A DNA stretch of 64,000 nucleotides from Phoenicibacter congonensis (GTDB lineage Bacteria > Actinomycetota > Coriobacteriia > Coriobacteriales > Eggerthellaceae). The DNA lies in assembly GCF_900169485.1 (NCBI RefSeq), contig NZ_LT821227.1:1178001-1242000 (forward strand), read 5' to 3'. Below, in pieces: positions 57,612-61,115 of the stretch (positions are counted from its first letter, which is position 1; each line of letters starts with the position of its first letter). The notes beneath the pieces were generated by a model, which was not told the DNA's origin, did not search any database, and worked only from the letters and a program-made list of their open reading frames with translations. The translations under genes and the position numbers were made by a program.

Positions 57612-58223
57612 CTACAAGTTCTGACCATGTGTGCTCTTGTCAGAAATTCTTAGGATGGTCGAACCAACTTCTCCAAAAGACTTGTCATAGAGAACCTCAA
57701 ATTCAACACCCAAGCAACCAAAAATAGTTTTATTTGAATGTTCATAATATAAAAGAGCATCTTTTGCCACTAAACCAAAATTTCTAAATCTTTCAACATA
57801 AGAAAAAACTACTAGAGGGGAAAAAGCATATGGAGGGTCTAAAAACACGAGGTCAAAAGGAGCAAATGGAAGAAGTTTTTCAGATATATTCTCACTTTTA
57901 AAATCAGTTTTAACTATCGAGCAATTCGTACTACTAACCTTTAGCACCGATGTATTCTTTTTTAATGTTGAAATAGCCTTCGCATTAACGTCACAAAAAA
58001 CACAATGATTAGCACCACGCGACAAAGCTTCAAAACCGAGTGCTCCCGATCCAGCAAACAAATCAAGAACTTTAGCTCCTTCTAATGTCAGGTTACAACT
58101 GTAGTTAGAGCAAAGAGAATTAAAAACAGCTTCTCTAACTCTGTTAGTTGTGGGTCGGGTGCTCTTTCCCTCGGGAGTTTCGATAAAGCGCCCACCATAG
58201 ATTCCAGAAACAATCTTAATCAT
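57612..58223 (-). CDS. rsmD: 16S rRNA (guanine966-N2)-methyltransferase RsmD
   Basis: A 203-residue methyltransferase. The start is the ATG at 58223 (MIKIVSGIYGGRFIETPEGK), overlapping the RecG-like gene by eight bases. STRPTTNRVREAVFNSL, the SAM site VLDLFAGSGALGFEALSRGA and the catalytic DLVFLDPPYAFSP are visible. coaD, which usually follows rsmD, is absent; the next gene is the SepIVA-like one. Confidence 0.94.
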   Translation of the reverse strand: MIKIVSGIYGGRFIETPEGKSTRPTTNRVREAVFNSLCSNYSCNLTLEGAKVLDLFAGSGALGFEALSRGANHCVFCDVNAKAISTLKKNTSVLKVSSTNCSIVKTDFKSENISEKLLPFAPFDLVFLDPPYAFSPLVVFSYVERFRNFGLVAKDALLYYEHSNKTIFGCLGVEFEVLYDKSFGEVGSTILRISDKSTHGQNL

Positions 58224-59499
58224 TTGGGGCAAAACCTCCAAGCAAATCATGGGCAACAAACGACTCGGCTTTTTTCAAAAGAGCTTCATCTCTAACAAAA
58301 TTTACAAGCCTACAGATTTTGAAAATGTCATTTGTGCAGCCAAGGATGTCTCCCTCTCTTCTGTATCGCAATTCATTTTTCAAAATATCAATCTGATTTG
58401 TAGAATTACCTAATATTTCAAGCCGTTTTTTATGATTGATTGCATTTGATTTGCTAATTAAAAAACAGTCGCAACAGGCCAGTTTTCGCATCCTGTCTAT
58501 TACAAGAGAAGATATGCGGTTAGCGTCTTCTACGATTAACATTCCACACTTAAATTTTTCGCTTCTCCTAAATGAATAATCTAAATGCAGATGTTGAGAA
58601 ATTTCAAAACCCAATGCATGAAGATAATAACAATATCTTGCCTTAAGTCCTTGCAAGTTTTTTTGCAGGCCTTGCATGCATTCAACAGAGATTAAAGTTT
58701 GTGGCTGTCTTGCTGGAACTTTTAAGAAATCTGGATAACCCCAAACAAGTCGATCTCGCTGCTCAGCTGAAACACCAGCTAACGGAGACACAACACAAAC
58801 GTCCCCCTTCCCAAAATCATGCTTTCGAATTGCGTCAAATACATCTCCTGCATCATCTTGTTTATATAGAAAAACAGAACCCACACTCCCACTAGATTCT
58901 TCAACGAGGCCGAATGGTTGAAGCAGCAAATCGCTGAGTGTAACATTTCTCTTTTGACATTGCATCAAAACTTCAATGATTGAGTGAAGTTTAAGAGCCA
59001 TCCTTGATTTCTTTAGTTCAACCTTCCCTTCAAAGCCATGAACACCAATCAAAGCTTGCCGCCATGAATAGAATGTGTCACCTAACAGCATTTCGTCATA
59101 TTTAGCGTAGCTAAAACATTTCTTTGTGATTGACATATCATGCGCATAAACAGGCAAAACTTCTCGCGCCTCAGAATCTGAAATTAAAGAGATTAAAGGA
59201 TTGGTGAATGACTTCATTGAGTCATGCTCAATCAAAACTCCACCAGCGACGACCACATCGCCAGTCTCAAAATGTGTAGACAATACATAGGGTTCATAAA
59301 ACCGCGCTATCAAACAAGCCGAACCATCGCCTAAAAGATAGTCACAAAAAATAGCGTTATTGCTCGTTTTTCCTTCCGAAACGCTCAAAACTCGAGCGCG
59401 TATAGTACAAAAAAAACCTGTCCTTGCTTCCCCTATCTCACAAACTGATGTGAGATCAAGATATCTAACGGGGAGATAATTTAGGCAATCAAGTTCCAA
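58216..59499 (-). CDS. RecG-like protein without helicase motifs
   Basis: A 427-residue protein at the recG locus (fakA-recG-rsmD order). It is collinear with RecG. N-terminal wedge: LPVRYLD (9-15), IARFYEPYVLSTHFETGDVV (64-83), LPVYAHDMSITKKCFSY (115-131). C-terminal part: LIVEDANRISSLVIDRM (321-337), CFLISKSNA (345-353), ELRYRREGDILG (376-387), LVNFVRDEALL (398-408). RecG has about 690 residues and the motifs GDVGSGKT, DEQHRFG, SATPIPRTL and QLRGRVGRG. Here no Walker A exists; the DEQHRFG region reads SPLAGVSAEQRDRL (238-251), SATPIPRTL reads VPARQPQTL (261-269) and QLRGRVGRG reads RMRKLACCD. ATPase activity is therefore very unlikely. The frame is intact and tightly packed between fakA and rsmD. 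Confidence 0.8.
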   Translation of the reverse strand: MELDCLNYLPVRYLDLTSVCEIGEARTGFFCTIRARVLSVSEGKTSNNAIFCDYLLGDGSACLIARFYEPYVLSTHFETGDVVVAGGVLIEHDSMKSFTNPLISLISDSEAREVLPVYAHDMSITKKCFSYAKYDEMLLGDTFYSWRQALIGVHGFEGKVELKKSRMALKLHSIIEVLMQCQKRNVTLSDLLLQPFGLVEESSGSVGSVFLYKQDDAGDVFDAIRKHDFGKGDVCVVSPLAGVSAEQRDRLVWGYPDFLKVPARQPQTLISVECMQGLQKNLQGLKARYCYYLHALGFEISQHLHLDYSFRRSEKFKCGMLIVEDANRISSLVIDRMRKLACCDCFLISKSNAINHKKRLEILGNSTNQIDILKNELRYRREGDILGCTNDIFKICRLVNFVRDEALLKKAESFVAHDLLGGFAPND

Positions 59500-59501
59500 A
59501 T

Positions 59502-61115
59502 TTATTCAAGAGAGAAAATCACTGGATAGAGAGGCTGGCCACCAACATGCGGGTCAACTTCTAAATCTGGATAGGCATCTTCAATTTTCTCGACGAGGTG
59601 TTCACTGTCTTCTTCACTAAAACCTTCGCCAGAAAGCAAAGTGAATGTGTCATAATCGTCAGTATCTTTTTTTGCAATCAAATCAAGAACAACCTGGCTA
59701 ATGTCATCTCCAACTGCAAGGATTTCTCCATCGAGAATGCCAATCACATCTCCCTCTTTAATGCAATTGCCGTTTGCATCGTGAGAATCTTTAATGGCGC
59801 AAGTCACCTCACCAGTAACAACAGAACCCAAAACATCACTCATTACATCAAGGTTTTCTTGTGCAGATTTTGTTTTATCTAATTCAAAAAGTGCGCTAAA
59901 AGCCTCAGGAACACTTTTTGTCGGAAGAACACAAGCATCATCGCCGATTAGCTCAGCAGCAGCTCCTGCAGCCATAATAATGTTTGAATTGTTAGGAAGG
60001 AACAAATAGCTCTTCGCTGGGACAGATATCGCTGCATCGTAGAGATCTTTAGTGGAAGGATTCATTGTCTGACCACCAGAAACAACGACGTCAACATCGA
60101 GGCTTCTTAAAATGTCAGCATTGCCATCACCTGCTGCCACAGCCACCACACAAAGCTCTTGCTCTTCCTGCTCGTTTGCAAGTTTTTCAGCACGATCCAT
60201 GGATTGCAATTGCATGTTGTGAATGTGCACTTCTGCAATTTGACCTCTGTCTAGGAAGTATTTTAAAACCTGATCAGGAGTGTTTGAATGAACATGAACC
60301 TTAAACTTTGGTGTTGCTCCAACGCAGAGTTCACAATCACCCATTGTCGACAAGAAGTTCAAGGCATCCTCAATTACAAGCTCGTCAGAATCAACCAAAA
60401 ACTCGTTACAGTAACGATATTTAGAACCCTCCCAGTCATTAATTTGTTCAATCTCAACTTTAGGAGCGCTCATTTTTGATGCGTCAAATTTAAGAGATAG
60501 TTCCTCGCCTTTTTCAAGGAATGAAGTGACAAATCCGTCGAGAAGAATAGAAAAACCATATCCACCAGCGTCGACCACGTTATTTTCTTTTAACACTGGA
60601 AGATATTCAGGGGTCGTCTTTACCGACTCATATCCTGCTTCTACAAGCCCTGTTAGCGTTTTTTCTACAGAAAGTCCAGCATCGCGAGAGGCTCTTGCAG
60701 CTTGTGCAATATCAGAAAGAACTGTGAGAATCGTTCCTTTTACAGGTTTTCTCACAGCAGAATATGCTACATCTTCAGCAGAATCAAAAACAAATGCAAT
60801 TGACTCACTAGTCAACTCATCGCACTTCTTAATTCCTTCGCAAATACCTCTCAGAATTTGTGATGTGATAACGCCAGAATTACCACGAGCTCCCATCAAT
60901 GCGCCAGTTGTGATTGCGCGACAAACAGATTCTTTGTTTAAATTGGAGCCAAGGGCACTAAGGTTATCTTCGACGCTCCTCATTGTGAGAGACATGTTGG
61001 TTCCTGTGTCTCCATCGGGTACAGGAAAAACATTTAAACGATTGACTTCTTCTTCTTTCTCGGCTAGTGAATGTGCGGCAAAAACCACAGCGCTCACAAA
61101 CTTAGAAATTTCCAT
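59502..61115 (-). CDS. fakA: DAK2-domain fatty-acid kinase subunit FakA (YloV-like)
   Basis: A 537-residue kinase. The N-terminal DhaL/DAK2 domain has NVFPVPDGDTGTNMSLTMRS (ATP/Mg-binding aspartates, about residues 27-46), GALMGARGNSGVITSQILRG and KPVKGTILTVLSD. The middle and C-terminal parts (VDAGGYGFSILLDGF; VVSGGQTMNPSTKDLYDAA; FLPNNSNIIMAA) match YloV/FakA. It phosphorylates fatty acids bound to a FakB (DegV-family) partner, which is not in this window. asp23 (yloU) lies just upstream, the standard pairing. Confidence 0.92.
   Translation of the reverse strand: MEISKFVSAVVFAAHSLAEKEEEVNRLNVFPVPDGDTGTNMSLTMRSVEDNLSALGSNLNKESVCRAITTGALMGARGNSGVITSQILRGICEGIKKCDELTSESIAFVFDSAEDVAYSAVRKPVKGTILTVLSDIAQAARASRDAGLSVEKTLTGLVEAGYESVKTTPEYLPVLKENNVVDAGGYGFSILLDGFVTSFLEKGEELSLKFDASKMSAPKVEIEQINDWEGSKYRYCNEFLVDSDELVIEDALNFLSTMGDCELCVGATPKFKVHVHSNTPDQVLKYFLDRGQIAEVHIHNMQLQSMDRAEKLANEQEEQELCVVAVAAGDGNADILRSLDVDVVVSGGQTMNPSTKDLYDAAISVPAKSYLFLPNNSNIIMAAGAAAELIGDDACVLPTKSVPEAFSALFELDKTKSAQENLDVMSDVLGSVVTGEVTCAIKDSHDANGNCIKEGDVIGILDGEILAVGDDISQVVLDLIAKKDTDDYDTFTLLSGEGFSEEDSEHLVEKIEDAYPDLEVDPHVGGQPLYPVIFSLE

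Follow-up and report, generated by a model that had tools for sequence, protein, structure and literature searches.

The 64,000-nt window of DNA from the gut bacterium Phoenicibacter congonensis (Eggerthellaceae) analysed here (G+C ∼41%), part of a complete genome of 1,447,956 bp in one contig, contains a recG gene that has lost its motor. By its locus and profile matches the gene (58216..59499, minus strand) is the recG orthologue of Phoenicibacter, and on balance its product is probably a functional RecG pseudohelicase. The frame is intact (427 codons, a TTG start and zero internal stops), and no ribosome-binding site for the TTG is evident in the window. It lies between fakA (59502..61115, minus strand; synteny conserved), which we also use as a rate yardstick, and rsmD (57612..58223, minus strand); the gap from the end of fakA is 3 bases, and the stop overlaps the rsmD ATG by 8 nt (58216–58223), bearing out the tight packing of an intact frame given in the preliminary description. 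The GGAGG of rsmD sits in codons of the recG 3′ end, so that a careless deletion in recG would affect rsmD. Because fakA is followed by recG in 66 relatives, of which 59 also have rsmD, the locus can be taken as the place of recG.

The profile matches are confined to the two ends of the protein. RecG_wedge (PF17191; residues 4–128, E 5.7e-10) is its sole Pfam domain, the DEAD and Helicase_C domains being absent in the Pfam search, and the NCBIfam RecG models match at the N-terminus (residues 4–129) and C-terminus (about 341–415) with scores of 18–60 bits, none close to the cut-offs of at least 555. For TIGR00643, the score of 54.6 bits is below the curated cut-off of 659.4, which intact family RecGs also miss (best 642 among the matches listed). 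Together with the fakA–recG–rsmD order, the wedge and C-terminal matches agree with the earlier assignment as a RecG homologue at the usual locus.

Alignment with 39 intact family RecGs shows which parts remain. The wedge domain, an OB fold (residues 4–128; 59116..59490, minus strand), is recognised by PF17191, AlphaFold2 (AF2), and Foldseek. It is followed by a helical linker that joins wedge to motor (residues 159–193; 58921..59025, minus strand; model helices 159–183 and 188–196) and a Q-motif-like remnant, PFGLVEES (residues 194–201; 58897..58920, minus strand), after which the first motor lobe, RecA1, would be expected. The alignment instead resumes at the start of the second lobe, RecA2: residues 208–250 (58750..58878, minus strand; SVFLYKQDDAGDVFDAIRKHDFGKGDVCVVSPLAGVSAEQRDRL) align with the intact lobe 2 start (THVVSKADQGRAYDAAREALARGEQVYVVCPLIGQDAEARDKR) at a median z of 6.1 versus shuffles, and SPLAGVSAEQRDRL corresponds to the RecG lobe 2 sequence CPLIGxxAExRD. 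Since PFGLVEES precedes the lobe 2 start, RecA1 has been deleted as a block from Walker A to TATPIPRTL. This departs from the preliminary description, which had Walker A, the DEQH box, and SATPIPRTL replaced in place; almost the entire RecA1 lobe is deleted, and the candidate reading of SPLAGVSAEQRDRL as a degenerate Walker A is ruled out by its alignment with lobe 2. Nor does VPARQPQTL (261–269), previously placed at SATPIPRTL, correspond to TATPIPRTL: it falls in an unalignable middle (residues 251–319; 58543..58749, minus strand) with mostly low pLDDT, where motifs IV and V are unrecognisable.

Beyond this middle, the RecA2 strand LIVEDANR and an eroded motif VI, RMRKLAC, are found at 58453..58542 (minus strand), and motif V is missing according to the family alignment. 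RMRKLAC does fill the place of motif VI (QLRGRVGRG in intact RecGs), as was proposed for RMRKLACCD (335–343) against LRGRVGRG. In the remnant of the TRG region (58255..58371, minus strand), RREGDILG is retained and the loop NRQHG has become CTNDI, losing an invariant Gln; Gln640 of E. coli RecG is reported to be essential (PMC6213257). Overall the protein is ∼300 residues short, including ∼50 at the N-terminus, where the preliminary description gave a loss of ∼260 residues of the helicase part. Because the motor motifs are lost, the protein as read from its sequence cannot bind or hydrolyse ATP in the way RecA-fold helicases do.

A search of viral and genome collections with the protein returned no relatives; the one other Phoenicibacter that we could compare was found through FakA. 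It is the metagenome-assembled genome (MAG) Phoenicibacter congonensis S12M_St_49 (Eggerthellaceae, 84% complete; G001), which groups with P. congonensis on one long stem in the FakA tree. At the same locus it has a recG that starts right after fakA, is open for all 242 codons to the contig end, and lacks the N-terminal 50 residues as well as a recognisable Q motif. That these 50 residues are missing in both species suggests that degeneration predates their split. The two proteins share 44% identity over 188 aligned codons (codons 6–193), with identity by codon position of 0.56/0.62/0.32 against a third-position chance level of 0.28 (p 1.7e-9). By LWL85, dN is 0.57 and dS is saturated at ∼2.6, compared to a dN of 0.14, a dS of 1.4, and 82% identity for fakA of the same genome pair. 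The 44% identity of the wedge region is below that of all 157 control pairs of similar FakA distance (49–83%). In a neutral simulation, the 427-codon frame stayed open in 0.75% of runs at 10% divergence and in 0 of 2000 at 20%.

Open frames, saturated third positions, and conserved first and second positions together argue for purifying selection; judged by this comparison, which covers codons 6–193 between two species, the N-terminal half has been under relaxed purifying selection for most of their separation. The signs of a neutral pseudogene (stops, frameshifts, and dN/dS near 1) are not seen. Queries with the C-terminal part and with rsmD did not find the other half of the G001 gene on another contig, which is uninformative in a MAG 84% complete. 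The G001 tail aligns with the P. congonensis protein no better than shuffles do, and AF2 predicts the G001 wedge with confidence and the tail without it; because the tail is not significantly alignable, the RecA1 deletion is likely, though not proven, to be common to both Phoenicibacter species.

A second RecG without a motor comes from the MAG Coriobacteriia bacterium S38M_St_18 (G037), also at the fakA–recG–rsmD locus (contig L110:6539-8473; 645 aa with TGA as Trp). In this protein Walker A has become CEFCSDKI, DEQQRFG has become DEKDQFS, and TATPIPRTL appears as TTRPLTKSL, while nothing remains of motifs V and VI or of the TRG loop; Pfam still detects weakened remnants of the motor fold. 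The wedge retains 25 of 29 strongly conserved columns. The wedge has an identity of 0.48 to that of the closest intact relative (L107), compared to 0.29 for RecA1 and 0.36 for RecA2, as against a RecA1/wedge conservation ratio that is always at least 0.90 in pairs of intact RecGs. Since the L107 protein still has its motor and Phoenicibacter lies far away in the FakA tree, this motor loss is independent of that in Phoenicibacter. Such a second, independent case hints that RecG may be of use even without a motor.

The same MAG (JAUNQF01; contigs L110 and L175–L238) appears to read TGA as Trp. In-frame TGA stands opposite W in 47 of 91 comparisons, as TGG does in 59 of 91, and at 37 of 66 distinct TGA codons a relative carries W. 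Release factor RF1 was found (L207) and RF2 was not in ∼1.03 Mb. A 96-nt tRNA with anticodon UCA (L178 c4024-4119), which ARAGORN calls tRNA-SeC, lies beside tRNA-Trp(CCA). In the literature searched, UGA recoding is not reported for Coriobacteriia.

RecG and RuvAB are partly redundant branch-migration motors of bacteria. The complete P. congonensis genome contains no second recG, which answers a check proposed in the preliminary description: the best TIGR00643 match is a 1143-aa frame that we read as Mfd, and the next RecG-profile matches are PriA and other helicases. Likewise, no intact recG was found elsewhere in G001, where the best family match is again an Mfd-like frame. Among the matches listed for 138 family genomes, most are full-length RecGs; a lone degraded copy beside intact relatives, named beforehand as the contrary pattern, is found at the level of the family and not within the genus. 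The recG of Gordonibacter pamelaeae 7-10-1-b (L141:6304-9514) comes as two overlapping frames of 610 and 718 aa, either through a frameshift or through an error of sequencing. P. congonensis has intact PriA and RecA. Profile searches found neither RuvA nor RuvB in P. congonensis (G000), G001, or the family MAGs G013, G014, and G015, an absent match being strong evidence for the complete genome only and not for the MAGs; at least two of the latter three have a long recG frame. RuvA and RuvB were not found in the 1.03 Mb read of S38M_St_18 either. RadA, a candidate substitute motor, was found in none of nine family members.

For the Phoenicibacter gene, the reading as a functional pseudohelicase would run as follows. 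With its ATP-binding lobe lost by deletion, and with lobe 2 and the TRG loop eroded, the protein would consist of its OB-fold wedge, the linker helix, and a smaller lobe-2/TRG body. Such a protein would act without ATP and be kept by relaxed purifying selection on its N-terminal half. Its job would be passive: the wedge may recognise or cap branched DNA, or may dock a partner at stalled forks, while the work is done by PriA and Mfd, two other motors that the genome encodes. Fast wedge evolution, the acidic wedge described below, and the TTG with no evident ribosome-binding site count against this reading.

Some of the same observations would be expected if the gene were a slow vestige, its function lost once the genus had dispensed with branch migration by RuvAB and RecG, its remnant decaying, and its N-terminal conservation mostly predating a motor loss that possibly took place separately in both species. 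This account, which we consider unlikely without being far-fetched, draws on the fast evolution and the loss of basic wedge residues, on the absence of RuvA and RuvB matches in either Phoenicibacter species, on the weak start region, and on the unalignable G001 tail, which leaves a common deletion unproven. It fits poorly with frames that are open in two species despite saturated third positions, with the conservation at codon positions 1 and 2, with the same shortened start after fakA in both species, and with the parallel case of S38M_St_18, in which the wedge is kept selectively. The preliminary description had left a choice between a repurposed, ATP-independent protein and recent decay; the two-species frames, the codon positions, and the S38M_St_18 protein favour a retained protein.

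What the retained wedge might do can be approached from its predicted fold. The AF2 model of the P. congonensis protein (41 sequences) has a mean pLDDT of 70 and a pTM of 0.59, and the wedge is its best part, mostly 75–95 across residues 11–110 with blocks up to 95. Its best Foldseek match in the PDB is Thermotoga maritima RecG (1gm5, E 4.9e-13), and the next are ssDNA-binding proteins with an OB fold; the fold and profile comparisons suggested earlier both lead to RecG. At the wedge tip, R66-F67-Y68 (59296..59304, minus strand) align by phmmer and in the family alignment with the branch-contact residues R95-F96-F97 of E. coli RecG, in which changes harm DNA binding or ATPase (PMC10164576). 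Candidate counterparts of the wedge aromatics in T. maritima were Phe204 and Tyr208. The ungapped alignment supports the places of Phe204 (and Trp203) only; Tyr208 was rejected, as Val stands where other RecGs have Tyr208/Trp. The Phoenicibacter wedges retain 11–12 of the 29 strongly conserved columns, and their net charges are −5 and −4, with −6 in S38M_St_18, intact RecGs ranging from −2 to +7. On its own, a RecG wedge domain is able to bind Holliday junctions (PMC7889586); the acidic turn of all three motor-less wedges makes plain DNA binding less likely here.

These charges, and an OB fold predicted with confidence, would suit a sub-case of the pseudohelicase reading in which the protein does not bind DNA and is instead an adaptor, the OB-fold partner of, for example, a replisome or ribosome-biogenesis protein. 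We regard this as rather improbable, given that the aromatic wedge tip is retained and no partner is known. The SSB-tip pocket was likewise set aside as a retained function, because the places of the E. coli arginines 474, 467, and 614 do not align with arginine in the P. congonensis protein or the family. Very improbable is a purely translational role, in which the frame is kept only because ribosomes crossing it feed rsmD: the 8-nt overlap and the rsmD ribosome-binding site inside recG would select against stops whatever the protein does, but such coupling predicts neither the excess conservation at codon positions 1 and 2 nor the preference for wedge over motor seen in S38M_St_18, and rsmD has its own GGAGG.

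Compared to known RecGs (T. maritima 1gm5 and E. coli 9wm0; TIGR00643, PF17191), the Phoenicibacter protein is alike in locus, wedge, linker, and lobe 2/TRG parts, and RecG is its best structural match; it differs in having no RecA1 lobe, Walker A, DExx, TATP, motif V, or N-terminal 50 residues, and in its eroded motif VI and TRG loop. The S38M_St_18 protein resembles it in having lost all motor motifs at fakA–recG–rsmD, in its kept, acidic wedge, and in coming from a genome where RuvAB was not found, and differs in its greater length, far better conserved wedge, independent origin, and apparent use of TGA as Trp. A precedent is PriA of Deinococcus radiodurans, a pseudohelicase that has lost its motor and keeps DNA binding and partner contact (PMC4504706). 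Both are bacterial fork-remodelling SF2 proteins whose motor function is lost and whose gene is kept; in the Deinococcus protein the motor motifs have decayed and DNA binding has been measured, whereas in Phoenicibacter a whole lobe is gone and any DNA binding is putative. In the open literature searched, the term pseudohelicase was applied only to Deinococcus PriA and Utp25, apart from one passing mention, and the RecG literature searched contains no motor-less RecG, an absence that is not proof. Pseudohelicases as such are already known.

We suggest, as a possibility to which we give somewhat less than even weight, that in Coriobacteriia without RuvAB and RadA, RecG has more than once been turned into an acidic wedge protein that lacks a motor and has its own task, which would leave these RecA-positive cells without a known branch-migration motor. 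Two independent motor-less RecGs separate wedge from motor in nature, making the wedge's own role directly testable, and a RecA-positive genus with neither RuvAB nor a RecG motor raises the question of how it deals with recombination intermediates and stalled forks.
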